Positions 444-60,560 of a DNA stretch of 64,000 nucleotides are shown one piece after another. The DNA lies in NCBI GenBank assembly GCA_012845835.1, contig JABAKD010000006.1:7734637-7798636 (forward strand), given 5' to 3'. Source of the DNA: Undaria pinnatifida (lineage: Eukaryota > Sar > Phaeophyceae > Laminariales > Alariaceae). The position numbers and the translations under genes are program-made. Position 1 is the first letter of the stretch, and each line of letters begins with the position of its first letter. The notes beneath the pieces were generated by a model. That model was given only the letters and a program-made list of their open reading frames with translations. It did no database searches and was not told where the DNA came from.

Positions 444-1909
444 TTTCGAGTCAGTACTTTGTACGTGGCAAGTGGGGGGGGTCGCAGGAGATCAACGCTG
501 GCGAGATTGGGTGCTCCGAGCCCCAACGTATATAATTTGTCACTGTAGTTGAAGCTCTACTCGTTGAGCTGCTTCAGTCACGTGATTGACGTAGCTCAAA
601 CGCTTAGATCGTCCTGCTAACACACCCATGCAAGTCAGTTGTGTTTGCTGTTGTGTGTCGGTAGGTAGGCACTGTACGAGAATTATGTTTACCGAAAAGG
701 ATGGAAGCGTGCAAGGCTTTCCACTGGTGGGTGGTGCGTTTCCGGTGAGACCGTGTTTCGATGCTGGCAGCCATTGCAGTTAGCCACGTTTTTGTTGGAC
801 GCAATCAAACAGGTTTTGCGTTGGTGACATTGCGCGAACATTTCTTGCTTCTTAAAACGCCTTGCTATGTGCTGAGCGCCACTGCAAGGGCACAGGAGAG
901 ACAGGCACGGGCAGTTTCCAATAACCATGTCTCTGGTGAAAAGGGTATGATGACAAATAATCAATCGCATAGTTTAGTCAACTTGTACGTTGATTATGAT
1001 GTGTGCTGATCGCCAACACTACAGCTAAATACTTACTGGCGTGCGTGTTAACTATTTTTGGACTTGAAAAAAGAGACTTGGTCGAGCGGTCAGCGTACTG
1101 CTTTGGTCAGTACATCTTTGGATTGAGAATAGTCAACAGCCACCAGTATATACTGGACAGCATCAGTATACTGGATGCGATTTTCTTCATTTTTTTTTCA
1201 GGGGCTTTAGGCTTTGAGCAAGTTATGTCAACTAAACTATTTACTCACCGAGCTCACCGAGCAGGACCGCGAGACTTCTTTCTTCGACGGTGGGTGGTAT
1301 GTGCGGAGGCACCACCGCGTAAGCGTGGCCATCGGGCTACTCAGGCGAAATATACCAGCCGCGGTCAATCCACTGGGGACACAAAACTACGGCCAAGAAA
1401 ATATAGCCCTCTGAAGAATAGCCAACACAGAGACTAATCCTCAAGTTAGAATGATAGAATGTGTACCTCGGCCACCAAAATCTCAACTGGTACAGCAGTA
1501 TTAAGCAATTAAAGTTCACACCCCAGTAGCACATGGTTGGCTTGTTGAACAATGGGATAACTTGAAAAGATGCACGAAGAAACCCGGTGCAAATATTTCC
1601 ACGGCACGGTGACATCGTGTTATGGACGGGGCGGCGGTGGCGGCGGTTTCGGAACTACGCCTGATAGCGCATTAAACTTGGGATGAGGAGTCTGTTCTAT
1701 AAACGGGCGACACGCGCAGCGGCTGATATGTGGCCGACGCTGAACTAACACACCGTTTCAAATGATGATAATAACAATAATGAACAGCTTGCAGCAACGA
1801 CAACAATGATGATGGTGATGATGACGATGATGATGATGATGATGATAAATGATGATGATGATGATAATAGTAACATCATTAAAACAATACAAAATAGTCC
1901 AACTTTGTA
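444..1909. other. 3' flank of the truncated copy; no gene seen
   Basis: This is the downstream flank carried by the duplication; its twin is 4,911-6,379. It contains short open frames conserved between the copies only because the copies are young, and a GAT/GATGAT microsatellite at about 1,805-1,870. No protein family was recognised. Confidence 0.5.
1805..1871. repeat. GAT trinucleotide microsatellite (copy 1)
   Basis: Runs of gat/gac triplets. The twin at 6,272-6,345 differs in repeat number, which explains part of the 3-4 bp offset drift between the duplication copies. Confidence 0.9.
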
Positions 1910-3059
1910 TCAACACACCAGGCCCTGTCCCCGCCCACAAACGCAAAACCTCACGCGTTCCAAGTCTCCGGGGTGGCACCATAGTCCCAACCCCGACCCC
2001 TCCCACGAAGATGCTACCCCAGCACCGCCATTAATAGGCGGTCCTCGTTCCCCTAGCAAAGGCGGTGATTTTTTCAAAGCGCCTTTTTTTGGCGAGCGCT
2101 CGACATCCGCCTCAAGACCGACGACCCCTGCCACTGGGAGTTGTGAAATCCTGTTTGGTCGCAAGCTAGTGGACTCCATGACGCCAGGTTGCGAAACACC
2201 GTGCTGTGAGCAACCACCGCCCTCCAAAGAAACGCCTGCGCTTGAAACCCCGTCAGAAGGAGACGCCTTCTTCGAAGCTCCACCATCCCCTCCGTTACCA
2301 CTACTACTACTACTGCTACTACCACCACCACCATTTATATTGCTACCAACACCGATACTGCCTCTACCACCATTGCTACTACTGCCACTGCCAGAAGCAG
2401 TACAAGATTTTGGTGGCATAAGAGCAGTGTCTGCAACAGCGACGCCGTCTTCGGTGGTTCCTTCTGCCGACAGATGATGTATCGAAAAATCCCCACTGCT
2501 AGGAAAGCCAACGCTATGCCATGGAACGCCCGCAACCTCGAGGCAACGGTGGAAAGCGCCCATGGTCTCGGCATTTCGAAGCTTAGCGAGGAAGCGACGC
2601 GAGGGTTTGCAGAATGAGGAGGAGGCGGAACAGGGGCAGGCGAAAGGGAAGGGGGAGGGACGGGGGAGATTGAGAGAGAAGCGAGGAGATGAACTCACGC
2701 TTTCATGGGGGGGTTACAGGAGGATGCGGGGGGGGGGGGGGGGGGGTTGAACGAGAATTGTAGAGAAGCAATCGCTCTTTTACGGTGGGTTTGCAGGAGG
2801 AGGAGGCGGGGATGGGGAAGAGGAAGAGGAGGGGGGATGAGAGAGAACTGTGGAGAAAAAGCACGCTATTTCGCGGCCGCTCCAACGAGTATGAACTACA
2901 ACTACTCACGGCCGCTCCACCGAGTATGACCTGCAACTACTCGTGCCGTACAACCGTCGCACTCCGGACAAAAACTCCCTTGCCCCAGAGCCCAGGCGGA
3001 TTGCGTGTCACACCCGATGATGTGGTGATCACTTTTATTCGATTTTTTTGTCCGTTTCA

Positions 3060-3400
3060 AATCCCAAAAGGGCTAAGAACCTGAAGAATTGGATGTTACA
3101 AATCTGAAAAAAATCATGTTACGAACCTGAGAATATGCGCGATAGGGAATCCGAGAGACGTATGTTTAAGAACGCGTGGAAAGACACATTAATAGCATGA
3201 GAAAGTTTATGTCGAAGAACGTGAGAAAAAGTACGTTTAAGAACCTGATAACACGCGTGTTCAAGAAGCTGAGAAGCGTATCTTAAGAACGCGTCAAAAC
3301 GTACGTTGACAACCTTATAGAAAAATACGTTACGAACCAGATAAAAGTGTGTTACGAACCTGAGGAAACATGTGTTAAGGACACGATAAAAAACAGGTAC
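3060..3400. repeat. degenerate short tandem array (about 35-bp unit), copy 1
   Basis: The phrases 'gttaagaacctgataaaa' and 'gttacgaacctgag' recur about every 30-40 bp, giving about ten diverged units. The array lies in the intron before the last exon of the duplicated methyltransferase exons. The twin array is at 7,530-7,870. Confidence 0.7.
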
Positions 3401-3454
3401 TCCATCCACTGCAGCGAAGCACGATACGATAGAGGTAGCACCATTTGTCGCGAA

Positions 3455-3825
3455 AAAAAACCTGAATGACGGGGCCCCTTAACTCGAAATCGTCGGAATG
3501 CCATTATAGCTACTCAATTTGACTTCTTGCTGTAGTAGTTTTGACTCTTTTTGTGTATCTCAGTCATGGGTTTGTTCATCGGGTTGGAATTTCAGTTTTC
3601 TCCCAAAAATCATTTTTGGGGTGAGGTATAGAGCTCAGAGATCTAAATGACGGGGCTCCTTAACCCGATATCGTCGGAATGTCATTATTGCTACTCAATT
3701 TGAATTTTTGTTGTATTAGTTTTGACTATTTTTCGTGTATCTCAGCCATGGGTTTGTTCATCGGGTTGGAATTTCAGTTTTCTCCCAACAATCATTTTTG
3801 GGGTGAGGTACAGAGCTCCTCAAGC
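3455..3825. repeat. two tandem copies of a ~185-bp unit (copy 1 of the block)
   Basis: Units at about 3,460-3,645 and 3,645-3,825 share 'atgacggggc', 'aactcgaaatcgtcggaatg' or its variant, 'catgggtttgttcatcggg' and 'ttctcccaaaaatcatt'. They are intronic to the duplicated exons. The same pair occurs at 7,930-8,290. Confidence 0.85.
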
Positions 3826-4910
3826 AACCGCCCTCAATAAGAAAAAACCGTGCACCACTATCGTACCATGCGTCCAAGCATTACACTTACCGTAGATGCG
3901 AAGATTATGAGCGCGTCCGGGCACCTCCGCAGAGTCTCCACCACCACACCCACCAACGCCGGGTGGTACCTGCCGGGTCGAGCAGTCGTTGTTGTCGCCG
4001 GCAAGCAGAGAAAAAAAAAATAGGCAAAGGCCTGTCGCTTAAAATAGCATATTTGATGTCGAGTACGGGTTCACCAAGAATAACAAAGATTAGCGAGCAA
4101 GCTGCCGCAGACGCCCTCTCTAACACGCCTGAGACATACCTGGAACCTGGTATGTTTTAGGACGCCGCGAGGCAAGCCATCCGTGTTGAACTCTCTCTCT
4201 TGTTTTAGTATATCTACCTCCCTCCCTCTCTACCCCCTTTCCTTTCTCTTCCTCTCGCAGGCTTTCTCTGCAGTCCGCCCAACCTCTCCCGAAGATCACC
4301 CGTAACCCTAGATTAGCCCATGGCCACGTGGTGATCGAGTAAACGGTAGAACAGCCCAAGCGGGGAGAGGCGAGGGTGGGGAAGCGAAAGAGAAACCAGA
4401 ACCCATGCACTCCCGACAACAAAGCATCCAGCCGCCCACCTAGCCGCCCACCCATCCATCTACTTACCCACCCATACCCACCCAACCACCCACCCAGCCA
4501 TCTGCCCACCTGACATCGTACACAACATCTGCGGCCAGAACCACCTCCGGCACACCCAACGCATCTATCTCCTCTTCCCGTTCCCTCCCTTCCGCCCCCC
4601 CCTCCTCCTTATGCCCTTGATCCTCTTCCTCCTCCCCCTCCTCCTCCTCCCCCTCCTCCTTGCCCCGGCCAAGTCCATCCGACCGCCCCTCCTCCCCGCC
4701 CACGCCTACACGTGTCACCGCCGCTGGTGCTCGTATTCCCGTCGATGGTGCTGGTGTCGCCGTCGACGGTAAGGAAGAGGTGTAGTCGGTCCAATCGAGG
4801 GAGCGGACCGTTAATTTTGCGGCGTCCGCATTGGGAGCAGGGCCGCATTGCTGTAGCCACCTTCTGTTTATTTCAACGTTGAATCGGAGGTTGGCGAGCA
4901 CCCTGAAGGG

Positions 4911-6379
4911 TTTCGAGTCAGTACTTTGTACGTGGCAAGTGGATGGGGTCGCCGGAGATCAACGCTGGCGAGATTGGGTGCTCCGAGCCCCAACGTATAT
5001 AATTTGTCACTGTAGTTGAAGCTCTACTCGTTGAGCTGCTTCAGTCACGTGATTGACGTAGCTCAAACGCTTAGATCGTCCTGCTAACACGCCCATGCAA
5101 GTCAGTTGTGTTTGCTGTTGTGTGTCGGTAGGTAGGCACTGCACGAGAATTATGTTTACCGAAAAGGATGGAAGCGTGCAAGGCTTTCCACTGGTGGGTG
5201 GTGCGTTTCCGGTGAGACCGTGTTTCGATGCTGGCAGCCATTGCAGTTAGCCACGTTTTTGTTGGACGCAATCAAACAGGTTTTGCGTTGGTGACATTGC
5301 GCGAACATTTCTTGCTTCTTAAAGCGCCTTGCTATGTGCTGAGCGCCACTGCAAGGGCACAGGAGAGACAGGCACGGGCAGTTTCCAATAACCATGTCTC
5401 TGTTGAAAAGGGTATGATGACAAATAATCAATCGCATAGTTTAGTCAACTTGTACGTTGATTATGATGTGTGCTGATCGCCAACACTACAGCTAAATACT
5501 TACTGGCGTGCGTGTTAACTATTTTTGGACTTGAAAAAAGAGACTTGGTCGAGCGGTCAGCGTACTGCTTTGGTCAGTACATCTTTGGATTGAGAATAGT
5601 CAACAGCCACCAGTATATACTGGACAGCATCAGTATACTGGGTGCGATTTTCTTCATTTTTTCTTCAGGTGCTTTAGGCTTTGAGCAAGTTATGTCAACT
5701 AAACTATTTACTCACCGAGCTCACCGAGCAGGACCGCGAGACTTCTTTCTTCGACGGTGGGTGGTATGTGCGGAGGCACCACCGCGTAAGCGTGGCCATC
5801 GGGCTACTCAGGCGAAATATACCAGCCGCGGTCAATCCACTGGGGACACAAAACTACGGCCAAGAAAATAAAGCCCTCTGAAGAATAGCCAACACAGAGA
5901 CTAATCCTCAAGTTAGAATGATAGAATGTGTACCTCGGCCACCAAAATCTCAACTGGTACAGCAGTATTAAGCAATTAAAGTCCACACCCCAGTAGCACA
6001 TGGTTGGCTTGTTGAACAGTGGGATAACTTGAAAAGATGCACGAAGAAACCCGGTGCAAATATTTCCACGGCACGGTGACATCGTGTTATGGACGGGGCG
6101 GCGGTGGCGGCGGTTTCGGAACTACGCCTGATAGCGCATTAAACTTGGGATGAGGAGTCTGTTCTATAAACGGGCGACACGCGCAGCGGCTGATATGTGG
6201 CCGACGCTGAACTAACACACCGTTTCAAATGATGATAATAACAATAATGAACAGCTTGCAGCAACAACAACAATGATGATGGTGATGATGACGATGATGA
6301 CGATGATGATGATAAATGATGATGATGATGATGATAATAGTAACATCATTAAAACAATACAAAATAGTCCAACTTTGTA
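4911..6379. other. 3' flank of the methyltransferase gene; no other gene seen
   Basis: This is the duplicate of 444-1,909. It holds a GAT microsatellite at 6,272-6,345 and no recognisable protein. The 3' UTR and polyadenylation site of the methyltransferase gene should lie here on the minus strand, but I could not place them. Confidence 0.5.
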
Positions 6380-9300
6380 TCAACACACCAGGCCCTGTCC
6401 CCGCCCACAAACGCAAAACCTCACGCGTTCCAAGTCTCCGGGGTGGCACCATAGTCCCAACCCCGACCCCTCCCACGAAGATGCTACCCCAGCACCGCCA
6501 TTAATAGGCGGTCCTCGTTCCCCTAGCAAAGGCGGTGATTTTTTCAAAGCGCCTTTTTTTGGCGAGCGCTCGACATCCGCCTCAAGACCGACGACCCCTG
6601 CCACTGGGAGTTGTGAAATCCTGTTTGGTCGCAAGCTAGTGGACTCCATGACGCCAGGTTGCGAAACACCGTGCTGTGAGCAACCACCGCCCTCCAAAGA
6701 AACGCCTGCGCTTGAAACCCCGTCAGAAGGAGACGCCTTCTTCGAAGCTCCACCATCCCCTCCGTTACCACTACTACTACTACTGCTACTACCACCACCA
6801 CCATTTATATTGCTACCAACACCGATACTGCCTCTACCACCATTGCTACTACTGCCACTGCCAGAAGCAGTACAAGATTTTGGTGGCATAGGAGCAGTGT
6901 CTGCAACAGCGACGCCGTCTTCGGTGGTTCCTTCTGCCGACAGATGATGTATCGAAAAATCCCCACTGCTAGGAAAGCCAACGCTATGCCATGGAACGCC
7001 CGCAACCTCGAGGCAACGGTGGAAAGCGCCCATGGTCTCGGCATTTCGAAGCTTAGCGAGGAAGCGACGCGAGGGTTTGCAGAATGAGGAGGAGGCGGAA
7101 CAGGGGCAGGCGAAAGGGAAGGGGGAGGGACGGGGGAGATTGAGAGAGAAGCGAGGAGATGAACTCACGCTTTCATGGGGGGGTTACAGGAGGATGCGGA
7201 GGGGGGGGGGGGGGGAAGGTTGAACAAGAATTGTAGAGAAGCAATCGCTCTTTTACGGTGGGTTTGCAGGAGGAGGAGGCGGGGATGGGGAAGAGGAAGA
7301 GGAGGGGGGATGAGAGAACTGTGGAGAAAAAGGACGCTATTTCGCGGCCGCTCCAACGAGTATGAACTACAACTACTCACGGCCGCTCCACCGAGTATGA
7401 CCTGCAACTACTCGTGCCGTACAACCGTTGCACTCCGGACAAAAACTCCCTTGCCCCAGAGCCCAGGCGGATTGCGTGTCACACCCGATGATGTGGTGAT
7501 CACTTTTATTCGATTTTTTTGTCCGTTTCAAATCCCAAAAGGGCTAAGAACCTGAAGAATTGGATGTTACAAATCTGAAAAAAATCATGTTACGAACCTG
7601 AGAATATGCGCGATAGGGAATCCGAGAGACGTATGTTCAAGAACGCGTGGAAAGATACATTAATAGCATGAGAAAGTTTATGTCGAAGAACGTGAGAAAA
7701 AGTACGTTTAAGAACCTGATACACTCGTGTTCAAGAAGCTGAGAAGCGTATCTTAAGAACGCGTGAAACGTACGCTGACAACCTGATAAAAAAATACGTT
7801 AAGAACCAGATAAAAGTGTGTTACGAACCTGAGAAAACATGCGTTAAGGACACGATAAAAAACAGGTACTTCCTCCACTGCAGCGAAGCACGATACGATA
7901 GAGGTAGCACCATTTGTCGCAAACAAAAATCTGAATGACGGGGCCCCTTAACTCGAAATCGTCGGAATGCCATTATTGCTACTCAATTTGACTTCTTGCT
8001 GTATTAGTTTTTACTCGTTTTTGTGTATCTCAGCCATGGGTTTGTTCATCGGGTTGGAATTTCAGTTTTCTCCCAAAAATCATTTTTGGGGTGAGGTATA
8101 GAGCTCAAAAATCTAAATGACGGGGCTTCTTAACCCGATATCGTCGGAATGTCTATATTTGCTACTCAATTTGACTTTTTGTTGTAATAGTTTTGACTCT
8201 TTTTCGTGTATCTCAGCCATGGGTTTGTTCATCGGGTTGGAATTTCAGTTTTCTCCCAAAAATCATTATTTGGGTGAGGTACAGAGCTCCTCAAGCAACC
8301 GCCCTCAGAAGAAAAAAACGGTGCACCTCCATCGTACCATGCGTCCAAGCATTACACTTACCGTAGATGCGAAGATTATGAGCGCGTCCGGGCACCTCCG
8401 CAGAGTCTCCACCACCACGCCCACCAACGCCGGGTGGTACCTGCCGGGTCGAGCAGTCGTTGTTGTCGCCGGCAAGCAGAGAAAAAAAAAATAGGCGAAG
8501 GCCGGTCTCTTAAAATAGCATATTTGATGTCGAGTACGGGTTCACCAAGAATAACAAAGATTAGCGAGCAAGCTGCCGCAGACGCCCTCTCTAGCACGCC
8601 TGAGACATACCTGGAACCTTGTATGTTTTAGGACGCCGCGAGGCAAGCCATCTGTGTTATCCTCTCTCGTTTTAGTATATCTACCTTCCTCCCTCCTTCT
8701 CTACTCCCTTTCTCTTCCTCTCCCAGGTTTTCTCCGAAGTCCGCCCAACTTCTCCACAAGATCACTCGTAACCCTAAATTAGCCCATGGCCACGTGGTGA
8801 TCGAGTAAACAATAGAACAGCCCAAGCGGGGAGAGGCGAGGGCGGGGAAGCGAAAGAGAAACCAGAACCCATGCACTCCCGACAACAAAGCATCCAGCCG
8901 CCCACCTAGCCGCCCACCCATCCATCTACTTACCCACCCATACCCACCCAACCACCCACCCAGCCATCTGCCCACCTGACATCGTACACAACATCTGCGG
9001 CCAGAACCACCTCCGGCACACCCAACGCATCTATCTCCTCTTCCCGTTCCCTCCCTTCCGCCCCCCCCTCCTCCTTCTGCCCTTGATCCTCTTCCTCCTC
9101 CCCCTCCTTCTCCTCCCCCTCCTCCTTGCCCCGGCCAAGTTCATCCGACCGCCCCTCCTCCCCGCCCACGCCTACACGTGTCACCGCCGCTGGTGCTCGT
9201 ATTCCCGTCGATGGTGCTGGTGTCGCCGTCGACGGTAAGGAAGAGGTGTAGTCGGTCCAATCGAGGGAGCGGACCGTTAATTTTGCGGCGTCCGCATTGG

Positions 9301-46317: not shown

Positions 46318-46533
46318 CTACAATTTTTGAAAATGCGTTTGCGACAGTTTCGAAAGACTGTCACTTTCTACCATCAGTGGCCACGGTCTGTACAATATTA
46401 ATGGAGGCAGCACATTAGTCAAACCAACATCATGAGGATCGAAGGCTGGCTTGTTGGAGTCGTCAGCACGGCGTGCTTTAGCGGCAACATGGCGGCCCCA
46501 CAAGTTGAGAGGGGTACGGATGTCCTCAGCCAT
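46318..46533 (-). CDS. hypothetical 71-residue open frame
   Basis: A minus-strand ATG frame gives MAEDIRTPLNLWGRHVAA, then PHDVGLTNVLPPLILYRPW before an AT-rich end. The first 55 residues look protein-like, while the tail after a possible donor (ctgatg followed by gtagaaag) does not. It may be a first exon or the start of a transposon protein. No family is recognised. Confidence 0.25.
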   Translation of the reverse strand: MAEDIRTPLNLWGRHVAAKARRADDSNKPAFDPHDVGLTNVLPPLILYRPWPLMVESDSLSKLSQTHFQKL

Positions 46534-46781
46534 GACGTCTGTGAAAAAGGTGGGCTCTCGGCTTCCTGTGTCGAGAGCTCCATGACGGCTATGCCTTAAA
46601 GTATAACAGTGGCCATTAACAGCAACCCCCTTCGCCCCCCTCCCCTCCCTTGCCCCCCCCCCCCCCCCTCCCGTCCCGTCCCCTCCTCCTCCCTTCCCCC
46701 TCCCACCCCCATCCCCATTTCCGTCTCCTTCCCCCTCTCAATTTCCTAATGAAAACAACGAAACGAAACGAAACCTACCAG
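46534..46781. other. C-rich spacer
   Basis: Long C and CCT runs at about 46,625-46,740. No gene. Confidence 0.6.
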
Positions 46782-47006
46782 TTACGCCGTTGTCGACGCC
46801 ACTGGAGAAGGGACCCTCCCCCCATGTGAACCCGGATTTGGCGGTTTCGCTCCGGTTGAACGTAAAAGAAGGCCGTCGAGGTCTTCCCAACGCCCAGGGG
46901 GTAGGGGTGGAGGTAGGGGGGGCTCTAGAGAGGGCACCCTTCGAGCTGGTGGCGGTGTGGGAAACCCGAGGGGGGGGGGGGCGGAGACGGCTTCAACGCC
47001 TCGAAC
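46782..47006 (+). CDS. exon-like fragment upstream of the pseudokinase gene
   Basis: An acceptor (cctaccag) is followed by 225 open bases and a donor (gaac followed by gtgagt). The product reads PLEKGPSPHVNPDLAVSLRL, NVKEGRRGLPNAQGVGVEVG and ALERAPFELVAVWETRG. Start phase 2 and end phase 1 are consistent with an internal exon. No neighbouring exon with a matching phase could be found: the gene at 47,980 starts with its own ATG and a hAT-like repeat lies between them. It is either part of a gene I could not complete or a remnant. No family recognised. Confidence 0.35.
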
Positions 47007-47078
47007 GTGAGTTAGCCTTGTTTGGTTTGTTTTGCTGTGGTTTGTTTTACTACGATTTGCGATCGAGATTCATTTTTT

Positions 47079-47270
47079 TCAGGGCTTCTCACGGGTCAGA
47101 TCACCGCTCGCGGATCAGGGTGACTTGGCCCGACCCGTGATATTTGAAAACCTCCTGACCCGACCCGGCCAAACCCGTGAGGTTTCGAGCACCTCCAGAT
47201 AACGCGACCCGACTCGACACGCGTTTTTTTTACCCCACCAGACCCAACCGGCGGGCCGGGTCATGACCGC
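47079..47270. mobile_element. hAT-like end with GACCCG subterminal repeats
   Basis: 'cagggcttctcacgggtca' resembles the CAGGGCTTG ends of the GGCC elements. It is followed by 'gacccgacccgg' and 'cccgtgatatttg' phrases and a 'gggccgggtcatg' near 47,253. The partner end is not clear. Confidence 0.4.
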
Positions 47271-47979
47271 TGAACAGTTTTTTTTTTTTTTACCGCGCCA
47301 AAAGGTAGGGGCCTCTTTCGAGTCGCCTGAAACGTCTCCCAACGCACAGAAGTTGACGTCAGCAGTTACATCTACCCTGGTGCGCGAGTTTCTAGCCACA
47401 GCTGTAGTCTACGACTCCAATCTTTTTTTTTTTTTTGCCTCAAATCTAAAACGGGGGGCCACTCCGGAAGGAAGCCTTGTGTTTTTGATTAGTTGGTTGT
47501 GTTTTGTATTGGTGGGCGCAAGGGGACGGCGAAGAGGGGAGGGGAGGAGGGGGAGTGGGACATGTTCTTGTTTTGTGTCAGATTTAAGGTAAGGAGATGG
47601 GAAAGAAGAGGGAGGGGAAGAGGAAGATGGAGGAACGATAGAGATGGAGAGTTGAGAAGAGAATGAAACGGGAGAGGGATGGGAAATCGAAAGCGAGGTA
47701 AAAGTTTTTTTTTGCGGCCTGTGACGGCGTAGTCCGTGTAACGTCGAGGTCTGCGCATGCACCAGGCATGTCGCAAAATCTGTAATTACACAAAGTACTT
47801 GCGGCGACCGCCGCCTCCCCCCCCGTCCCGCTTGTGATGGCATTTTGTAAAAGCTAACACGAAAATAATTGCTGCTGCTGCCGCCGCCGCCGCCACCACC
47901 TCCATCGCTACCTTGTTTGTCAGGGCTACCGTGCGTCGGACGGCCGTCTTCAGGCCAACACAGCGCACACCTCGCGGCG
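47271..47979. other. upstream region of the pseudokinase gene
   Basis: T runs, a GA-rich tract (47,520-47,680) and a CTG/CCG patch just before the proposed start (47,870-47,900). The promoter and 5' UTR of the plus-strand gene should lie here. No core promoter element could be pinned down. Confidence 0.4.
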
Positions 47980-50900
47980 ATGGGGTGAGTGACTATCTGG
48001 ATGGTAGGGTTGAATTTGGTTGGGCTGGGATGCTGTGTCTTTGCATAGTCGGCGGTTGGTTGTGGGTAGGTTGGTCCGTTTTCAGTTTGTGGGTGGGTGG
48101 TGGTGGCGGTGGGTGGGTGGTGATGGATGGGTCTACTCTTAATTGTGACACGACCAACAGTCCTGCTTTCGTTGGGTTTTGATCAGGTTGGGTTGGAGTG
48201 GGATGGGGTGGGGGTAGGGTGGGTCTCGTTGGTTGATATGGTTTTCTTTGAGGCAGGATCCGTTGTGCGTGTTTTTGTTCGATTTGTTTTTTTGGTAGTG
48301 TTTTGTTTTGTTAGGCTTGCTTGCTTGCTTAGTAAACACCGTCGCTCGCCGACTACTATTAAGGTTAGCAGTTGGCACCCGCGAGTGTCCACGGCCAGGA
48401 TTGTAAAGGTGCGTTACAAAACAAAAGACTTGCGTATTGTAACGCCAGAAATTCCCGCCCCCCTTCTGCCCCCACCCGCTCCCCTCCCATCATGCCCTTC
48501 CAAACTTGAAGCGACCACCGAGAGGGGCACACTCTCCGTCCCCCCCTCGCCAGCGCGGAGGGCCATCGTCCTCGACCAAGGGCGGCCAACGACCCAAGCA
48601 CAAGCGCCCCCCCTCGTCGTCCTCCCCCTCTTCGTCAAAAGCTGAAGGAAAGACTGGGACGCCGTCGCATAGACGCGGCGGCAGTGGCGGTAGCGGTGAT
48701 AGTGGCGGTAGGGGTGGGCCGGCGCGGTCGACGAGCTCGGAGACGGGGCCTCTTTCTCCGTCTGGACGAGGATGGGGACGGGAGGGGGAAGGAGGTGATG
48801 CATCCCCGACCCCCGGGTCGACTGTCCATGGAATACCGCCTCCTCACCCGGTGGTAGAAGCGACCCCGAAAAGGGTGGCGAGGAGCCTCATGTTTACCTC
48901 GGCCGCGCGCAAACGTGGCAGCGGCTATGGGAGTAGTGTCGGTGGTAGTAGCTTCGGCGGGGGCAGCAGCGTCGGAGGGAGCGTTAGCGGGAGCGGGGTT
49001 TTCGAGGATGACGGCGCTGCCGCCACGCCTACCTCTTCGCTGGGGGCTGCCACGGCGTACTCTTCCCGCGGCCGGGGCGGGGTGCCGCCCTCCCCGTCAG
49101 GCAGCGTCTTCAGCGACATCAGCGGGACTGAAGGTGTCTTTGCCGGCGCTTACGGTGGTGGTGGCGGCGCCGCCAACAACCGGCGCCGCGGTCCACTGTC
49201 GTCCCGTGGCTCTGGCCCGCTCACGCTTACCTTACCCGCTATGCTAGAGAGTGAGGACGGGGGCGGGAGTGGTGTCCCTCGAGAGGACCCCCCGCGGTCG
49301 CCGCTCAGCAGATTGGCGGCCGCTAACCTTGCGGAAGAAGCGCAACGAACCGCGAAGGGAACGAGCTTTACGGGCACGGCGTTGACGGGTGATGCTGCTT
49401 CGGCGGCGGCGGTGGCAGGGGCAGGGGAAGGGGCGGCAACGGGAGGGGTGGCGGCGGGGGCGGTAGCCAAGGGGGCGGCGGCGACGAACGCACCAGGGGC
49501 GGTGGTGTCTTCTTCTCGGAGTGACGCTTGGCTGTTGGCGGCGGCGGTTGTCGCGGCGGTGGAGCGAAGTGAGCCCGCGGAGGCGAGGGGGCGCGTGCGG
49601 CCGGCGGCGGCGACGGCTGTTAACCTGGCGGGGGCGCTCGAGGCGCTGCAGCCTGAACAGGTCGGCAAATCGGGCAGGGCAGATGACGTCATTGATAAGG
49701 CTGGGCTTGCCTCGAGCGTTGTGAGGGAGGTGGGCGTTTTGACGCTGGAGGAAGGGCATGGTGGTGGTGGTGCCGGTGGTACTACGGAGGGGCAGATGGA
49801 CGAGGAGGCGGTGGAAGCAGCGGGGGCGATACTTTCGGAGGCCGGGCTTGCGGTAGATTCTTTAGCGCAGGTTAGTAGCGGACGTTTGTTGTTATTTTTT
49901 GCCCCTCGAGTGTGAAGCTGGTTGCTGTTTTTTTGTTTGTGCGACGTTAGTGCTTTTATTTTTTGTTCTCAGCCTCCTATCCCACGTCATATATATATTC
50001 AACCCTGTGCTACTCTCGTTCTTCCCCCCCCCCCCCCTGTCTCATCTTTTTTTTTTTGTTTTGTTTTTGGCGGTCGCCATGATAATTATCGAGTTAGATC
50101 ATATTGCGCGGGTCGGAGAACCGTAACTCCGCACAAGGGGAATGATTGCATCGCGTAGTGTGAATATGTTGAGGCACCCAGGAGGCAGTTGCATAGTAAT
50201 GCCCATTACTGTCTCTGGAGTGGCCACACTAGAAAACAAAGTAACTCATTGATCGCTGTCATCCGTAAGCAAGAAAGTAGTCACAAGGTGCTGAAGTCCG
50301 TCTTACGAGCGGTGCTTGGAAGGATGCAGTTCACCCTTCATGCGACTCGCCGAACACCCCACGGCGCTTCGTGCTTGGTGCAAGAAATGTCTGTCGGATT
50401 GGTGAAAACCCGAAGTGCTCCGTCCCGGCAGAGTAGAGATGCGAGGGCCTAAGGTCATACGACTACGGCCATGCACAAAATGAATACCCCCCCCCCCCCC
50501 CCCCCCCCCCCCCTTTCGTTGCCAGACGATACAATGGTGGTCCTGCGATAGCGTGATACTCTCTCGTCTAAGCCCCCTTTTTTCTCGATGAAAATCGCTT
50601 GTCAAGACCTCATCTTACCTACCGCACTGTCCCGTGCTAGGGATATCGCTTTAGTGCGTATATGATTGTCCGGCAAGGCACCACACTAGTGACAAAGCAC
50701 GCTAAAAACGATGGCCCCCCATTCCCTTGTCCCCGAGATTCACAAAAAACACAGTTTCACAAGCAATAACACCCTCCTAACCCTTCGCATCCTTTTGCCC
50801 GCCCCCCTCCTAACCCTAAATATATGTATGATAGTTGGCGTCGGTTGGCACCGACGCTGTGAAATATTATATGTATATTGGGGTTGGCGTTGGTTGGCAA

Positions 50901-53900
50901 CGACGCTGTAAACATGCCAATAACGGCGTGAGCTAGACAACCAGGGTAACCCTTTTTTTTTTTTTTTTCTTTGGCGGTCATCATGATGGTTATCGAGTTA
51001 GATCATATTGTGCGGGGTGGAGAACCCAAACTCCGGACAAGGGGAATGATCGCATCACTTAGTGTGGATATGGTAAGGCACCCATGAGGCAAGTTACATA
51101 GTAATACCCATTGCTGTCTCTGGAGTGGCCGCACCATAAAACAAAGTAACTCAATGGCGATGTCACCCATAAGCAAGAAAGTAGGCACAAGGTGCCGAAG
51201 TTCGTCACACGAGTTGTTCTTGGAAGGATGCAGTTCATCCTTCATGCGACTCGCCGAACACTTCACGGCGCTTCGTGCTTGGTGCAAGCAATGTCTGCCT
51301 GGTTGGTGAAAACCCGACGTGTTCCGTCCCGGCATCGCAGGAATGCGAGGGTCTAAGGTCATACGACTGCGGCCATGCACAAACTGAGTACACCCCCCCC
51401 CTCCCCCCGCCCCGTGCTCCCCTTTCCTCTCATTTTGTGTTCCCCCGCGGGAATGCCGCCACATACCCCCCACTGTAAACCAATCGCTGTGTATCCCAGA
51501 CCGCGCGCGCCTTCGCTTGGGGCGGAAACGAGGTTAGCAAGCTCAGCGATTGCGCCGCATTTGTGATGCGCCACCGTACGGCTACTGCGGCAGTGGTGGA
51601 AGCGGCGCGTAGGGCGGGGCTTTTCTTGGCCGCTCTCGCGACGGGCGAGGGCAAGGGGCCGAGGGAGAAGGCTGAGGCGCAGCGGCTGTGGCTGTCGGTG
51701 TTGGACCGCCACGAGGCGTGGTTAAGACGCAGGTGGGGGGGGGGGGGGGGGGGTAAGATGAGGGGAGGGGGGGGAGGGGTAGGGGCTGGAGGAGAGGAGA
51801 TGACGGGGGTAGGGGGCAGGCGGGGGGCTGTACTCATTTCATGCATAGCCCCACAACGCAGATGTTGCCGCAAGAGAAAGGCGTCTTTTCGTGTTTTACA
51901 CCCGTTGTAATACCATGTTCGGGGGTGGGAGGGGTTCTTACCAGCTCTGTTGGTTACGAATCTTTGGTTCCGACCCCTTTCTCTGCTGTCTCTGCTGCTG
52001 ATTTTCGTTGTTTTGCTGTTTCTGCCGCGGACTGCTGCTGCTGCTGTTGCTGACACTGCTGCTGCTACCGCTGCTGCTTTATTCTGCAGAGACTCTCGGA
52101 ACGGGTTGCTGACGGCGGAGCTGGAAATACCGGCCGAGACTGTGACCGTTTTCAGGGATTGCCGGCTGCTGCCGAAGGTGAGACAGCAAGACACACTTTT
52201 TTGCCCCGGCGTGTATCACTTGTGCACGAACAGAAGCGTTTTTCTAGCTGCTGCCTGCCCAAATGCGCTGCACAAAGTGTACTGCTATCATACACGATTA
52301 GTGATCTATGAAATTCGATGCTAATCGACGAGCGTAAAAAGCTGAAAAGTGGGAATGCTGAACTCTATTCGCGATAAAAGCGACGGCAAACCCCGGGGGG
52401 AAGGGAAGACACCTGTGACCACGGCTTGTCCAGAACGTCGCTGAGGGTAAAACCTCATACGAGTTGAGGTGGAGAGTAAAAAAGTGATGATTAAGAACAT
52501 ACGTTCTATGAAAAGCACCCTCTAATTACCACAAACCCAGCCTATACGGCAAGTAGGCTCAGTGCCAAGTAGTGACTTCCCCATCCCACTCCCGTCTTCG
52601 CTAAAAGTTGTTCGGCGACTCACTTCCAGATTATCTCGTCCGTCCTTAACCAACGACCTCAGGGAGCATTCGGCGAGACGTGCGCAGCCGAGTACCTTGG
52701 CATACCGGTCGCCGCGACGATCCTGGCGCATCCTATCCCCCCTCCCCTGCCTGCCACCGCCTCCGGCGTTCTGGAGAAACCTCCAACCACCACCTCCACC
52801 GGTAGCGCTACAGCCGCGGACACGGTTGCTGCTGCTACTGCCGCTACCGCTCTCCGCGCAACCGCGACTTCCGAGATGCGCGCGCTAGCTTCTCTCGTGC
52901 CCCCGCACCCGCGACTCGCGCGCATTCACGGCCTCGAGACATTCCCGACGGTGGCTGCTGTCTCCTCGCACCGCGTTGTGACGGGGGGCCACACTGGGAA
53001 GGTCGGGCAGGCGAGGGGGGAAGGGGGGGGGGAACGCGTTGTTACCGCCCCTGAGACTCCGGTTTTGGTGCTCGTGGGTGAGGTGGTCGATGGGGGTACC
53101 CTGCGTGACCGCGTGGCGGCTAGCGCCGCTGTCATCGCCGCTAACAGCGCAGCTGACGGCGCTGCCGATGGTGCCCGCGGCGGCGTGGACGGAGTAGGAG
53201 ACAAGCGAGGACAACCAGGAGATGTTGCTGTTGGGGGGGGGGGGGGCGGAGATGGCGCTGGTGATGATGGGGCAAGCCGCGTAGATGGGGCCGCAGAGAA
53301 TGGGCCGCCCGAAGCTGGCGCTCCCGAAATTGGGGCTCCCAATGATGGGGGTCCCGAAAATGGCGTTGCTGAAAAAGGAGTTGCCGACCACGGCGCTACC
53401 GATGGTGGTGTTATGGATGGTGCTAACGGGGCTGGTGCTGGCGGGGGTGGCGCTCGGGAAACGGCGAAGGCACGGCAGGCGCGGGGGCTGCTGCTGCAGC
53501 GGAGACGGGTGCTCGCCGATGTCGCGGAGGGACTCGCGTTCCTGCACGAGCGGGGCGTGTGGCACGGGGCATTGTCGGCGAAGAACGTTCTGCTGGACGC
53601 CGAGGGGAGGGCGAAGGTGGGGACAGTTACAGTAGTGACGATGGCGACGATGCGCGCGGGAGATTTATTACAAGCGAATGCGAGGTTCTATTTTGCACCA
53701 CGCCAAGAAAATTGTGACCCTCAGAGACCCCTTTCCGAGATCGCTGAAGTACTTTTTTGCTTATTTATCAGTTGATTTCGACCGCGGAGCAACACCAAAC
53801 ATCCACGAACACACACAACAAGTTGATGACAGTTGCGAACTTCCTGCTGCGAGAGTTTCTAGTAATAGCGATAGCGGACCTTCGCACGGCAACGGGCGCT

Positions 53901-56900
53901 TGTTCTCCCCCTCCTCGCCCACCCCTGTTTTCAAACGCGGCTGCTATAAAAAGCTAGCACGGACAGTTCTCTCTTGGAGGCTTGTGACAGCAGAACGTGT
54001 GTGCGCGCGAACGCGTGTGTGCGTGTGTGTGCACGCGCGCGTGTGTGCGTGTGTGTGGGTGTACGTGTGCATATGTGTGTGGATGCGTGTGCGTGTCTGC
54101 CTGCGTCTGTGCCTGCATCTGTGCATGCGTCTGTGCCTGTGCCTGGATCCGTGTCTATGCATGTGTCTGTCTGCGTGTGCTTGTGTGCCTGTGTATTACT
54201 TCTTGTGTGCGCATGCCCCTCCTTCCTCTCCCCCTCCGCGTTTCCCCTTCCGCGTCCCACCCCAGGCGTGCTCCTTAACACCCCCTAACGAAAACACGCC
54301 CGCCTGCCACACCATTCCTTCCGCTTTTTTAACGCGCATGTCTCCACTCGATCCTACCTTCCGCTATTCTCAAACGCGCTTGTTTCACACTTCATGCGTC
54401 GCAGCTCTTCCTGTTCGGCATGCCCGAGACCCGAAAAGCGGTGGAAGCGTGGCGCGGCGTTTCTGCGGCGGCAATCTCTGCCGCGTCCACTCCTTCTGAC
54501 AGTGTCGAGGCTGACACTTGTGTCAAGGACGCAGTCGACGCTACCGCGGCCGCCCCGCCAGCGAAGAACTGCTTGGAGCTGCGGACCGTGTGGACCCCGC
54601 CGGAAGCATTGACGACGGTGGCGACAGCGGCGATGATTGACCCGCCGGAGGAAGGAAGCGCGGCGGTCGCGGCCGAGCGTGAGAGAGTCGGCATAGCGGC
54701 GGACGCGTACGCTTTCGGAATGATCGCGTGGGAGGTACGCGAGGTTTTTAGTTTTTTGCTTTGGGAGTTGCATATCGGTTGTGGTGCGGCGCGGTGCGGT
54801 GAGGTGCGGTGCGTATTTTGTGTTTACGTCGGTGTGATGGGTGCACCTGCTTGCATGCGTGCATGGGTGTGTGTGTGCGTGCTCGTGTGTGCTTCTGTGC
54901 GTGCGCGCGTGTGCGTGGTGTTCGCGCATGCTTGTTGCCCTCTCTGTGCCAGCGATCGGCCTGTCTTTTCGCGCGACAGCTGATGGTATGTGCTCTTTTT
55001 GGTCGAAATTCCGTGCTGAGCTTCTGAAACAGAACGAACGCTTTCCTGACACCTGGTGAAGTGAGAAGTTGCTTTTGCTACAGGTTTTATTTAATGGTGC
55101 TTTAGTTGCGCGCCAGGGGCTGAAACAACCTTCAGCTATACGAGGACACGCGACCAAAAAAAAAAACATTCTCTAAAATTATCGGAATGAAGAATAGTCC
55201 AGACCGGAGGAGATTTCTGCACGAGTCGAGTAGTTTTTTTAACTCATGCTTTTCACTCGGATTTAGTATCACCCCCCCTTGTCTACTTCTTTGAATTTTT
55301 CGGGTGCCCCTGATTTATGGTGTTATGTTGTGTTGTCGCTGATGTTGTTCGTCCTTCAAAACACCGCTCTACCTAGCGGTTGAAGCCTCACCTGCGGTAT
55401 CGCTTTCTCTCGTGCATGTGCTTACCGGTCCGCCCACGTACGGTCTCCTCAAAAATCACATTTTTTTTCATTATTTCACCCTTTTTATGACCCTGCTACG
55501 TGCCAGGTATACGTTTTTCGTGTTATCGCTTGTATGTGCGTCTTTTTAAAAACCGCTCCACCTGGCGACTGAAAACTCATCTGCCTTACCGTTGTCCCTG
55601 CGTTGCACAGGTGCTCACCGGCCGCCAGCCGTGGGCGGGCGTCGACATCAACGACGTGTCCGCTAGAGTGTCTCGCGGCGAACGCCCTCCGCTAGCCTTC
55701 GAAGGGACTAGCCTTGAAGGCCACGATGGTTTCGGTGACCTCGTGCGTCTCCTTTGGGCCCAAGAGCCAATCGCGAGACCCGCGCTAGAAGATGTCGCGC
55801 GGAGCCTCCGTGGTACCGAGCCGACCCCCGCTGACTCTCCCCGCGTAGCGGAAGGTTCAACGAATCCGGCGGAGTTGACGAAGTCGGCGCCTCTTGCGAA
55901 GGGAGGGGCGCAGAGCCTCCGCGTTACCGAGCCAGCCCGCGCTGACTCTCCCCGCGTAGCGGAAGGTCCAACGACTTCGGTGGAGTTGACGAAGTCGGCG
56001 AATCTTGCGGAGGGAGGGGCGCAGAGCCTCCGCGGTACCGAGCCGACCCGCTCTGACTCTCCCCGCGTAGCGGAAGGTTCAACGATTTCGGCGGAGTTCA
56101 CGGAGTCGGTGCCTCATGCAGAGGGAGGTGATCAGGAGTTGGGCATCGGCGAGATAGACGGCAATTCCATGCTCCATGCTGATGACATAAACCGAGATTT
56201 GTTGGTAGCGGCGGAGGCGAGAGTGGAAAAGGAAGGAGGGGGGGCGGATGCGGAAGCGAAGCCGGAGACTGCGGCGGACGGGCGGGACATGCAGAAGGAG
56301 GAAGGAGTGAGCAAGGCGGTGACTGATGACAAGCTTGTATGCACAGCTTTGGCGCCATCATCCCCCTTGCCGGAAACCAAGAACACGATTTATTATTCGG
56401 CCGCAGTTAACACGCCAAAAAATCCCGCTTCTGATACCAATTGCGGAGACAAAATCGCGCCGTCTGTCGGCAAAGACGGCGGTGGCAGCGATCAGTTGGT
56501 TCTCGGCGTTTCGCTCTCGCCGATCCCCGGGGGGGGGAGCAGGGAGCGGGCACGACCGGAGGAGCTGGAGTCGCCGGGAGATGCCGACGGCAGCGGTGGC
56601 GAGTTGACATTGCCGGAAGACGAGAGTTGCGCGGGTAAGGGCAGCCGCATTGTGGAAGGCCTCAGTCCGAAGATGGTCGCGGCGGCTTTGACGACGGCGC
56701 TGTCGTCGGCGGTAGCAAACGACGCGGATGGGGATACCGGCGGCAGCGGCGGTGGAACCGTGGTGACGCCGCAAGCGGAGGCGGCGACAGCTGAGGTGGC
56801 GACAGCTGAGGCGGCGACAGCTGAGGCGGCGGGGGCGGCGGCGGCAGGGGCAGGGGCCACGACGGCGGAGGCGAGGAGCTTTTCGCTTGTAGACCGGGAA

Positions 56901-59225
56901 AAGAAGAAACCGCGATCTCGGAAAAAAAAACGTGCGAAGAGCTTGGCGGAGGTGGTGACCAAGACCTGGCGAGACATTATGTCGGAGGACGGTTGGGCGG
57001 ACAGGGACTGCGACGATGGAGAGGGCGCTGGCTCTGACATTTTTTACGGCGCGGTCAGCGACGTTAGTCCTAAAAAAGGTGTCGCGGATTACGGGGATGA
57101 TATGAACAGGCAGCCCTGGGTCACTCCTCGTGGAGGGGCTGGACCGATCGACCATGAGGCGGTAAAACGCGATGCTTTCGCGGTGGGTGCAGGGTCTGAC
57201 GCCAAGTCTTCATTCCCGGCGATGCAGTCCAGTCCGTTGACAGCTAAGTTTTCGCGGCCACTGCTTAGCTCGTCGCCGCTTGGCTCGGGGGACACTCCGC
57301 CATACCTGCATCACAAGGGGGTGTCCGACGTCGGCGATGACGAGCCGTGGGCGAAGCGGCGGGCTAGGGGAGTGGGGGCGGGGATGTTAATCCCACCCCT
57401 CGCGCACGTGCTGTCCACGGAGGGGTCGTCGAAGAGTGACTTTGAGTCGGACGATGGAGATGAGGGTTACTTTTCGTCTAGCGAGAAACACACCCACACC
57501 ATGTTTACCTCGCCGATAGTCTCTACCGCGGCGGGTGCGAAGACGATTTCCAAAGACGGAAGATCGGAACCGTTGCCTACCTGGATTCCCTCGCCCTCCA
57601 TACGCCCCGGCAGCGGATACACAACCGGGACCCCCAAGGCTGAGGCCGAGTCTAACTGGGGCGCATCATCTACTTCGCAGTCTGGGAGTATCGGCAGTGG
57701 CCTGTCCCCTGCTTCGGCTGTGAACGCGCGCATGGTGGCGGCCACCACCCGTATTCGGCAATCAGTCAGCAGTGACCAACCGCACGGCACATCGCAACGC
57801 CGAACGGATGGAACCGCTAGTCGCGCGGTCGACACGTCCAAAGCTGGGGCTGTGCCTGCACGCGTCCCGTCCCCGGCTGCCCGGCCCGGTGAGATCGGGA
57901 GCGGCCTTGCCCCTGCCGCGGCAGTGACCGCCGGCGTAGTGGCAGCCTCCGCGCCCCTGCGTCGATCAGCCAGCCTTGAGCAACCGCACAGCACGTCGCG
58001 GCGCCAAGCGCGCAAAGTCGCAGCCGGCGGCGGCGGGCTCACAGTTGAGACGCGCAAAGCCAGATATGTGCCTGCCAGCGTTCCGTCTCCAATTACACAC
58101 TTCGGTCGGATTGGTAGCGGCCTCACCCCTGCCGCGTATGCGACCGCCGACTTTGTGGCGGCCTCTGCCCCGCTTCATCGGGGCGACCGTCCGCGCAGCA
58201 CTCCGCAGCGCCGGGCGGGTAAAGTCGCGGCCGGCACTGGTCGCGTGGTTGACAGGCCTGAAGTCGGGGATGTGCCTGCCCGCGTTCCGTCTCCGGCTGC
58301 GATGAAAGGTGGGATCGGGAGCGGCCTTGCCCCTGCAGCGGCTGTGACCGCTAGCGTTGTAGCTGCCTCCCCTCGCCTTCGTCAAACAGCCAGACGTGAC
58401 GAGCCGCACAGCTCTTCGCGCCGGCAAGCGCATAAGGCCGCAGCCAAATACGGATTCGCGGCTGAGCCGCAAGTGACCGGAGTTATGCCTGCCCTAGTCA
58501 GGCACCCGCCTGTGCGATTTGGCAAGGTCGGTATTAGCCTCCCCCCTGCTGAGGCTGGAATCGCTGCTTCTGCTGCTGCTTCTGCGGGCGCGAGGGCGTC
58601 CTCCAACCCGATTCGTCGTGCAGCCAGCAGCGATCAGCCGTACAGCGCACGCCGGGGACGCACCGTTAAAGACGCCACGGGCACCGAACACGTGCTAGAG
58701 GCGCCCAAGGCCGAGGCTGTGTCTGCCAGAGCCAGGTCTCCGGGTGCTCGTCCGGGTAAAATTAGCAGTGGCTTGCGCCCCGCGTCGACGATTTCGGCTG
58801 CCGTTGTGGCTTCTTCCGCTCCGCTTCGACGAGCCGCAAGCGCAGACCAGCCGCATGATGAGGATGTCCCGCGCCAACAACCGGACAAAGGTGTGGTTGG
58901 TTCGCTGCACGGGTTGCTGTCGCCTGACCTGTCCCAGCTGTCGACGACATCGAGGGGTGGGGCCACGGTAGAGGTTACGCCGCCGCCGGCAAGCAGCGGT
59001 GGGCGGGGCAAGCGCACGCCCGTGCAAGGGTCGGCGCCTGTAGACGCGTCGCCACTGGAAGCCAATACCGATGTTGGCAGGGGCGGGGTACCGGAAACGC
59101 CATCGAGGAGAAGACGGGCGGGGGCAGCCCTGAGGGGCTTTGCGATGTCCTTTTCGAGGTTCGGTAAGGGGAAGAAAAGGGATGCCGGCGTCGGGGTTGA
59201 GTCGTTCCCGCTTGAAGAACGATGA
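47980..59225 (+). CDS. large TKL-type pseudokinase with repeat-rich tail
   Basis: Proposed exons are 47,980-47,984; 48,333-48,408; 48,449-49,870; 51,500-51,732; 52,090-52,177; 52,630-53,616; 54,405-54,734; 55,611-59,225. All introns are GT-AG with matching phases, giving about 2,250 residues. Order: a Ser/Gly/Pro-rich N-terminus, a helical Ala/Arg-rich segment (about residues 470-600), the kinase fold (about 609-1,113), then a disordered tail with 37-residue (x3) and ~70-residue (x6) repeats. Kinase landmarks are visible: GAFGETCAAEYLG, helix-C Glu in SEMRALASL, LHERGVWHGALSAKNVLLD, WTPPEAL, DAYAFGMIAWEVLTGRQPW and the final RPALEDV. Three catalytic residues are replaced: the VAxK lysine (VAAT, about T638), the HRD aspartate (HGA, about A922) and the DFG aspartate (LFG, about L940). 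The HRD-loop Asn is kept. It is most likely a non-catalytic scaffold or switch. Weak point: the frame changes between 48,409 and 48,640, explained here by a 40-nt intron that may be wrong. Confidence 0.8.
50070..51400. repeat. two ~430-bp direct copies inside a pseudokinase intron
   Basis: Copy A at about 50,070-50,495 and copy B at about 50,973-51,400 (offset 903 bp) share 'atcgagttagatcatattg', 'gtctctggagtggcc', 'aacaaagtaactca', 'ggaaggatgcagttca', 'gcgactcgccgaacac' and 'ttggtgaaaacccga'. Both end in long poly-C. Divergence is about 10-15 percent by eye, so the copies are old or arrived separately. A 45-50-bp phrase ('ggcgttggttggcaacgacg') is also doubled at 50,835-50,920. Confidence 0.85.
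52322..52437 (+). mobile_element. SINE fragment in a pseudokinase intron
   Basis: 'aatcgacgagcgtaaaaagc', 'gctgaactctattcgcgata' and 'gacacctgtgaccacggctt' match the 3' half of the SINE family. It lies in the intron between exons 5 and 6. Confidence 0.65.
53995..54195. repeat. GTGTGC/GTGCCT low-complexity tract
   Basis: Alternating 'tgtgtgcg' and 'tgtgcctg' units lie within the intron between exons 6 and 7 of the pseudokinase gene. A smaller one follows at 54,840-54,915 in the next intron. Confidence 0.9.
55803..56135 (+). repeat. 111-bp (37-residue) coding repeat, three copies
   Basis: Units start at 55,803, 55,914 and 56,025 with SLRGTEP or a variant. They continue DSPRVAEGST, then AELTKSA, then EGGAQ. 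They are in frame in the last exon of the pseudokinase gene, directly after the kinase fold. The units are nearly identical at DNA level, so expansion is recent. Confidence 0.95.
57684..58860 (+). repeat. ~70-residue coding repeat, six copies
   Basis: Units begin near 57,684, 57,889, 58,104, 58,308, 58,521 and 58,754, with spacing of 204-233 bp. The consensus is IGSGLxPA, xVVAAxxxLRR, DQPHSTSRR, a Lys/Ala-Gly linker, then VPARVPSP. They are much more diverged than the 37-residue repeat. The Arg/Ser/Pro-rich units could carry phosphorylation or docking sites; that is inference. Confidence 0.9.
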
Positions 59226-60560
59226 TCCTGTTGGAATTGGACTTGGAGCGCGCGGTCTGAAATCATCGCTTTGACCGCGAGGCTAGGGGGCTGCTGCTGC
59301 CGCTGCTGCTGCTGCTTCCATGGGCTGTTTCTTGCGCATTTCTTGGCTCGGAAAGAAATGCATTCTACACTAACTCAGTATATAACGGCTTCCGAATTTC
59401 TTACTTTCCTTTTGAATATCAGCTTGTCTTGCTTATAGTTAGTGATCGTATTTTAGTCGTATATTGTATGTGTCCTGTACTGCTGCATGCCGGTGAAACA
59501 CGTGCCTGAGTTGGCTGCTGCAAGCGCGATTTTACCACCGATTAGGCGATGGGTTGATTGCCGCTTGCGGCCCTGTTGAGTGTTTTTTTGTCTTATTTTT
59601 GTCTTATTTTGCTCATTTCGTCTGGTTTTCTCAACTCTGGTTGTTTCTGCTGGTTACGCAGGCAGGACGTGAACCAGTCACGTTGTTTCCGAAAATGCCC
59701 ACCCTGGTTTTCCGCTCGCTTTGGTTGGCGGGTGGTAGGGGGCGCGAAACTATTCGCCATGTTTTTGCCTCCCACGTTTGTTTATTTTCTTTCTGGTTTA
59801 GCTTGCGCTAGGGCGTGCCGCGGCGCAGTGTTAGCGCGGTGACTGGTGCTTTATAGCTGGTAGCTGTCGCTGAAGCGGGGCGCACCAAATGTTGCAACGG
59901 CAGGAGCGGGTAAAATTCTTGTGAGGATGATAAGAGATGGTGTGAGCAACTCGCGAGGTGCTAGGGCCGCATAACTCGTAAGGTAACACACCCCCTACGA
60001 CGATTTCCAAGCTGGTTTTCTCGGCGATGGGGAGAGTGTAAACGTCGAGCGATGTGTCCATGTTGACGTCCCAACGAGATATTTCCAAAGCCATCGTTTT
60101 CGTGTTGTGCGGTCTCCATTGTTTTTGAAAATATTGGCTTTGAGTTTCGCTCCCAAGGGCTGTGATATCGAGTCATTTCATACGGTACTCTGCTAGACTA
60201 GATATTATAGTAGTGCCATTGCCTGCGTAGATTTAGCAGGCAAACATGTCGGGTGTATGGCTTCACAATGCTCATCTTGTAGATTGTTAATGCCGTAAGT
60301 CAACGGGTATTAGTTTATACTTGGTAGTAAGTAATTCTGGTGCGTGGTAGGTAGGTAAGCTGTACGTAAATGCTGACTGTAATCGGTGCACGAGATGGTT
60401 TTGTGTAACGACCTGGTACGTTTAGACAGTAGGCGTTTTTGTCCCGGGGGCACTTGATATGCCTCGGGCATAGTAAGTTGCGAAAACAAATAGCTGGTAT
60501 CAGTTTGTTGATGCTTATTACTCCAGCGGAAATATTTGGATCATTGGGGTATACCAGGTA
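59226..60560. other. 3' flank of the pseudokinase gene; no gene seen
   Basis: A short CTG run at 59,291-59,318, then unassigned DNA. The 3' UTR of the pseudokinase gene is expected at the start. Confidence 0.45.

Follow-up and report, generated by a model that had tools for sequence, protein, structure and literature searches.

Gene structure at the locus

The window analysed here, a stretch of 64,000 nucleotides from Undaria pinnatifida, carries on its plus strand a predicted gene of six exons (48890-59225), which, spliced through five GT-AG introns, gives an open frame of 2,066 amino acids. Across these 2,066 codons we found no disabling change, i.e. neither a stop nor a frameshift. The exons, catalytic positions and repeats are located as follows:

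48890..49870, + strand: exon from the first in-frame ATG, a low-complexity N-terminal region of 327 aa (donor CAG/GTTAGT)
51500..51732, + strand: exon upstream of the kinase domain, judged helix-like only by eye
52090..52177, + strand: exon with the start of the N-lobe, ELEIPAETVTVF...LLPK (beta1), aligned to the IEIP...LGK stretch of the relatives
52663..53616, + strand: exon with G-loop, beta3, helix C, hinge, inserts and catalytic loop, through GRAK (acceptor CCTCAG/GGAGCA picked by homology; profile matches)
52717..52719, + strand: beta3 Lys replaced by Thr (ACG) in VAAT, from the alignment to relatives
52873..52875, + strand: helix-C Glu kept in SEMRAL, the least secure placement, from a weak piecewise match
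53128..53451, + strand: insert between helices D and E, 108 aa with degenerate 5-residue units in the spliced translation
53300-53363: 15-nt tandem repeat within this insert
53569..53571, + strand: catalytic Asp replaced by Ala (GCA) in HGALSAKN, from PDB alignments and the relatives' catalytic-loop profile
53584..53586, + strand: loop Asn kept
54405..54734, + strand: exon with activation segment, PPE and DAYAFG (helix F), from the spliced frame
54411..54413, + strand: DFG Asp replaced by Leu (CTG) in LFLFG, from PDB alignments and the intron site
55611..59225, + strand: last exon, remaining C-lobe (C-lobe profile i-E 3e-11), then a tail of ~1,140 aa
55797..56128, + strand: three recent tail repeats of 37 aa (111 nt), found with TRF
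57690..58859, + strand: six old tail repeats of ~70 aa, the last counted over 33 aa

In the long first exon the earliest ATG in frame lies at 48890, the predicted start; a start near 47980, as given in the original prediction, was not confirmed, and since the frame stays open upstream to 48443 the true 5' end is uncertain. For the exon that carries VAAT, an acceptor at 52630 was tried and rejected: it puts 11 extra residues into the G-loop, and the protein would then have 2,077 amino acids. Most likely this exon begins at 52663, without those residues, and reads LPKGAFGE. Indeed, related genes of the same genome align to LLPKGAFGETCAAEYLGIPVAAT at the G-loop, consistent with the acceptor at 52663, and moving the acceptor from 52630 to this position mends the G-loop reading. 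Four exons (the two shortest being outside this comparison) were set against dinucleotide shuffles: in three of them the longest open frame exceeds that of all 300 shuffles, and for the exon at 54405-54734 it is matched by 18 of 300.

Elsewhere in the window, a tandem duplication of ~4.47 kb is found at 443-9006, with blocks of 256-300 nt that are 92-99% identical between the copies. The first intron contains a 256-nt element twice within 50254-51413, the copies lying 904 bases apart with 88% identity; this is perhaps a dispersed repeat. For eight further open frames from the window Pfam gave nothing at E 0.01.

Kinase homology and relatives in the same genome

The original prediction took the gene for a TKL-type pseudokinase and proposed an HMM search for kinase families. 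In Pfam the kinase core matches PF07714 (E 9.4e-16) and PF00069 (E 2.3e-8); all NCBIfam kinase rows for the gene lie far under their cut-offs, and at E 1 Pfam gave nothing in the first and last exons. A search of the PDB places EGFR first (E 9.5e-10; no single stretch passes alone), followed by RIPK3 (E 8.5e-9), GCN2 and then RIPK2. The matches to RIPK2 and RIPK3, right behind EGFR, lie mostly in the C-lobe and reflect distant similarity only. That the top row is EGFR, a tyrosine kinase, speaks against a TKL placement; however, PF07714 ranks above PF00069, and the top catalytic-loop matches among the fetched loci all fall within one TKL family of the same genome. By these measures the gene appears closer to TKLs than to other kinase groups, and the predicted TKL-type pseudokinase is borne out at the level of sequence.

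Relatives were obtained as stretches fetched at Pfam-scan coordinates in the same genome (511,146,479 bases, 68 contigs), which gave a TKL family of 21 loci (L007, L009-L012, L014-L028 and L035). Together with the window gene they have the EIP...G-loop...beta3 segment, the HGxL...NxLxDxxGRA loop, an intron after GRAK and the C-lobe. The signature of the 21 loci reads EIP...LG.GGFGxV..AD..G.N.A.K, then HGxLxSxN.L.D..GRA in the catalytic loop, IxDFGT or DLGT, APE or SPE, and SDVYSFG. An intron right after GRAK is visible in 20 of them (with a GC donor in L021; L035 reads GRAQ), and in the window gene, too, an intron at this site separates GRAK from the DFG position. Seven related TKL genes (L007, L010, L011, L017, L021, L024 and L035) lie within ~270 kb (G000:C1 11.07-11.33 Mb) and are a local expansion. 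L001-L003, which head the Pfam scan and lie on the small contigs C45 and C50, look bacterial by eye and were left out; the kinase genes on G000:C50 and G000:C45 are probably contamination from associated bacteria. No relative turned up when viral contigs were scanned with a piece of 216 aa.

The placement of the motifs differs in strength along the domain. Profiles of the relatives (searches scored for a nominal 20,000 targets) match the window gene in the catalytic loop (i-E 2.1e-8), the C-lobe (i-E 3e-11) and the N-lobe (i-E 0.0075), and the hinge piece gives an i-E of 80. With tblastn, the top 22 rows for the catalytic loop are the 21 family loci (L008 being the same as L009); for the C-lobe the closest locus is L083 (42% over 80), which is found on the same strand as L009, downstream of it, and is taken as the C-lobe of the L009 gene. 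Since the N-lobe alone has no kinase match in the PDB, the placement of VAAT was motif-based until the relatives were found. Among the tblastn rows for the N-lobe in the fetched loci only two relatives occur, L019 (E 3.8e-5) and L022 (E 2.6e-4), and their alignments run through VAAT, where they read NAAAK or NVAAK. For the helix-C/hinge piece the best match is the bacterial-type L003 (E 0.003) with no clear family member, and helix C is therefore the least secure placement. The printed PDB alignments (EGFR, RIPK3) set HGALSAKN opposite the HRD loop and LFG opposite DFG. With the activation-segment profile of the relatives alone the gene is not detected, and over 46500-60500 this profile gives chance-level rows only (best shown i-E 0.68); the position of LFG is thus placed by these PDB alignments and by the common intron site, GRAK/LFLFG in the window gene and GRAK/IxDFG in the relatives.

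VAAT, HGA and LFG, the three motifs on which the original prediction was built, are all present, and by alignments and intron site the three catalytic residues are replaced by Thr, Ala and Leu, respectively. All three codons sit inside exons, and the changes are substitutions, not indels. The Lys two places past the catalytic Asp is also absent. As had been stated, the helix-C Glu, the loop Asn, PPE, DAYAFG and the final Arg (IARP) are kept, as are the H of HRD, the F and G of DFG, WE, PW and two of the three G-loop glycines. Reading HGA as a degenerate HRD holds for the Asp but not for the Arg: as all 21 relatives read HG, absence of the Arg characterises the whole family and can be ruled out as part of the degeneration, so that HGA represents one loss, not two. 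In the relatives the beta3 Lys is kept in all 18 loci with the N-lobe in view (the fetched stretches of L016, L023 and L028 show none), the helix-C Glu in 20 of 20, the DFG Asp in 21 of 21 (L022 reads DLG) and the catalytic Asp in 20 of 21, the exception being L018 with HGG. Because these same-genome relatives keep the residues wherever they are in view, with L018 lacking the catalytic Asp only, whereas the window gene lacks all three, their loss would most simply be a derived state. L018 itself (G000:C35:441500-449500), with beta3 Lys and DFG kept, is a second, partial pseudokinase candidate.

How rare is such a combination? The Pfam scan gave 142 matches, and the catalytic loop was viewed in 78 loci (L004-L007, L009-L081 and the window gene; L008 is a duplicate of L009 and was not counted, and in L082 the loop is not sufficiently in view), which are exon matches rather than curated genes and include non-TKL kinases. 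The catalytic Asp is absent in 4 of the 78: the window gene, L018, L054 and L066. All three residues are absent in the window gene only. L066 also reads HGA but was rejected as a match, as its gene keeps the beta3 Lys and the Asp of DYG; the same applies to L054, which reads HRN with Lys and DYG kept, so that L018, L054 and L066 all retain the beta3 Lys and a DFG-type Asp. The scan gives minimum numbers only: with E 5.8e-4 the window gene barely entered it, and equally degenerate genes may therefore be missing. Besides L018, two kinase-like genes deserve mention, L089 (G000:C13:8250000-8259500), with HGA, beta3 Lys and DYG kept and a long glycine-rich insert before helix E, and L090 (G000:C48:470500-477000), with HRN, thus no catalytic Asp, and beta3 Lys and DYG kept.

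Divergence of the kinase core, the insert and the tail

The insert of 5-residue units between helices D and E was found as predicted, with 108 amino acids by our count instead of ~115, and additional sequence is also present between beta3 and helix C. Insert and repeat tail are the window gene's own and were not found in the fetched relatives; L004, which shows two kinase pieces, was considered as a carrier of the insert and ruled out, the stretch between its pieces holding stops. At E 0.01 neither the tail nor the N-terminal exon matches anything in the fetched loci.

For the kinase core we took as family-conserved those positions that are conserved in at least 90% of the relatives (n = 103). 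Of these the window gene keeps 60 and has changed 43. Positions involved in nucleotide binding or catalysis, according to our own assignment, are lost in 6 of 11 cases versus 37 of 92 for the remaining ones (Fisher p 0.52); with random loss at a rate of 43 in 103, all three named residues would be lost with a probability of 0.07. Thus the catalytic residues are not singled out, as they are lost in proportion to other conserved positions. In a tree built from the window gene and the relatives other than L035 (n = 20; in some rows a segment is missing) the end branch of the window gene has 3.95 changes per column compared with a median of 0.091, which makes relaxed constraint plausible; grouping with the C35 trio (L009, L018, L022) is neither established nor rejected, with an AU p of 0.278 and a long branch. 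Taken together, the data fit a domain that first lost catalysis and then evolved under relaxed constraint, while its frame stayed open.

The tail behaves differently in its two sets of repeats. The six old repeats differ by 0.373, 0.296 and 0.495 at codon positions 1, 2 and 3, with a pooled pS of 0.53 and pN of 0.33 over 15 non-independent pairs; this excess at third positions is the pattern of translated sequence and shows coding constraint on the predicted tail. In the three recent repeats pS is 0.07-0.12 and pN 0.12-0.17, i.e. the synonymous excess is absent. The motif R[RQ]xxS is carried, as judged by eye, by four of the six old repeats. The original prediction had argued from an intact fold to a selected non-catalytic role. 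In favour of this are the frame free of disabling changes and the coding constraint on the tail, but the kinase core shows proportional losses (43/103), and a selected non-catalytic role of the kinase domain thus appears only partly supported.

Possible roles and known systems

With a probability of roughly 0.55, we consider the gene to be a strongly diverged, catalytically dead paralogue within an expanded TKL family, whose product would serve as a protein-binding scaffold or allosteric partner. We infer that the domain would be unable to transfer phosphate and would act as a protein-binding module. It may dock on an active kinase, the simplest partner being a member of its own family; the long repeat tail, with its basic-serine motif in four of six old repeats, could present phosphorylation or binding sites, and the protein as a whole might then act as scaffold or allosteric partner.

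Less likely is that the gene is a decaying duplicate in which the kinase fold retains no function, the tail perhaps being used or the whole gene disappearing. The very long branch, the proportional loss of catalytic and other conserved positions and the three tail repeats without synonymous excess agree with such a decay; however, 2,066 codons without stop or frameshift, GT-AG at five of five introns, older tail repeats that vary most at third positions and 60 of 103 family-conserved positions kept do not. Starting again from a dead paralogue with a retained binding role, the family could also be seen as a series, from kinases with all residues over L018 without the catalytic Asp to the window gene without the three, the latter being retained to serve the active kelp TKLs as a dedicated partner or decoy without catalysis, its output being the new serine-repeat tail; we regard this more elaborate version as improbable.

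We consider it quite improbable that the protein is an effector resembling MLKL, in which, as described in the available portions of PMC9950082 for MLKL of animals and plants, a helical N-terminal domain is controlled by a pseudokinase domain. Upstream of the kinase domain some relatives share exons of seemingly helical character, as judged by eye; of these the second was seen in 9 of the 21 loci and the first in 4. Among four pairwise N-terminal tests that with L014 shows a weak, suggestive similarity (4 of 500 shuffles reach its score). The PDB matches also include 6ka4 ('F22L4.1 protein'), which we take to be a plant MLKL. On the other hand, the remaining three pairwise tests are at chance level (86-112 of 500), the N-terminal exons of these relatives are undetectable in the window gene with the relatives' N-terminal profile and hhalign, and its exon region at 51500-51732 gave nothing significant in the PDB, Pfam or that profile. 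Against the PDB the relatives' N-terminal profile gave no MLKL, HeLo or four-helix structure, and single relatives yielded only sub-threshold Pfam rows, e.g. Rx_N (E 0.1). For the window gene the MLKL-like reading would be only a lead.

WNK and SelO are active kinases with relocated residues or other chemistry. In favour of an active enzyme of this kind, the window gene retains the helix-C Glu and two of the three G-loop glycines; this reading is nevertheless more improbable still, as both Asp and the Lys two places past the catalytic Asp are absent, and the Lys beside the G-loop is not a relocation, because many relatives with normal residues have it, too.

Least credible is an artefact of the gene model, in which the true splicing or assembly would give normal residues: the 5' end is uncertain and the exon model is a prediction from genomic sequence, but the three codons lie within exons and are changed by substitution. 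Splicing that restores the residues, which the original prediction had named as its possible refutation, is unlikely, because D[FLYW]G is absent from the three forward frames over 53500-55700 and the only AGs in 54361-54430 are 54404, which is used, and 54428, which would delete LFG instead of restoring the Asp.

Dead kinases of a related kind are known from other organisms. According to PMC3019232, 9% of the kinases of Phytophthora infestans (32) are predicted to be inactive, 19 of these being TKLs, and the P. ramorum orthologues of 25 P. infestans inactive kinases are also predicted to be inactive; going by this description, the inactive TKLs of P. infestans, stramenopile TKLs lacking at least one of the three residues, resemble the window gene. 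EphA10 and EphB6 have a kinase fold without all three catalytic motifs, according to the sections available of PMC7586955; these are animal receptor tyrosine pseudokinases and not TKLs, and have the loss of all three in common with the window gene. Another case is PfpTKL of Plasmodium, described in excerpts of PMC6544628 as a TKL pseudokinase with an insert that lacks the ATP-binding Lys (possibly an alignment offset, according to its authors) and has the Asp changed to Asn. On that description PfpTKL has lost the helix-C Glu, which the window gene keeps, and has its insert in the activation loop and other accessory domains, whereas the insert of the window gene lies between alphaD and alphaE. 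Among the matches listed in the open-access literature for pseudokinases, TKLs or MLKL with brown algae or stramenopiles, and for the Ectocarpus kinome, no title concerned a brown-algal pseudokinase.

Dead kinases are common, and the window gene is a good fresh example rather than a new type. If real, it could be used, together with the paralogues of the same genome that retain the catalytic residues, to test how a TKL loses catalysis and why the kinase fold is maintained.
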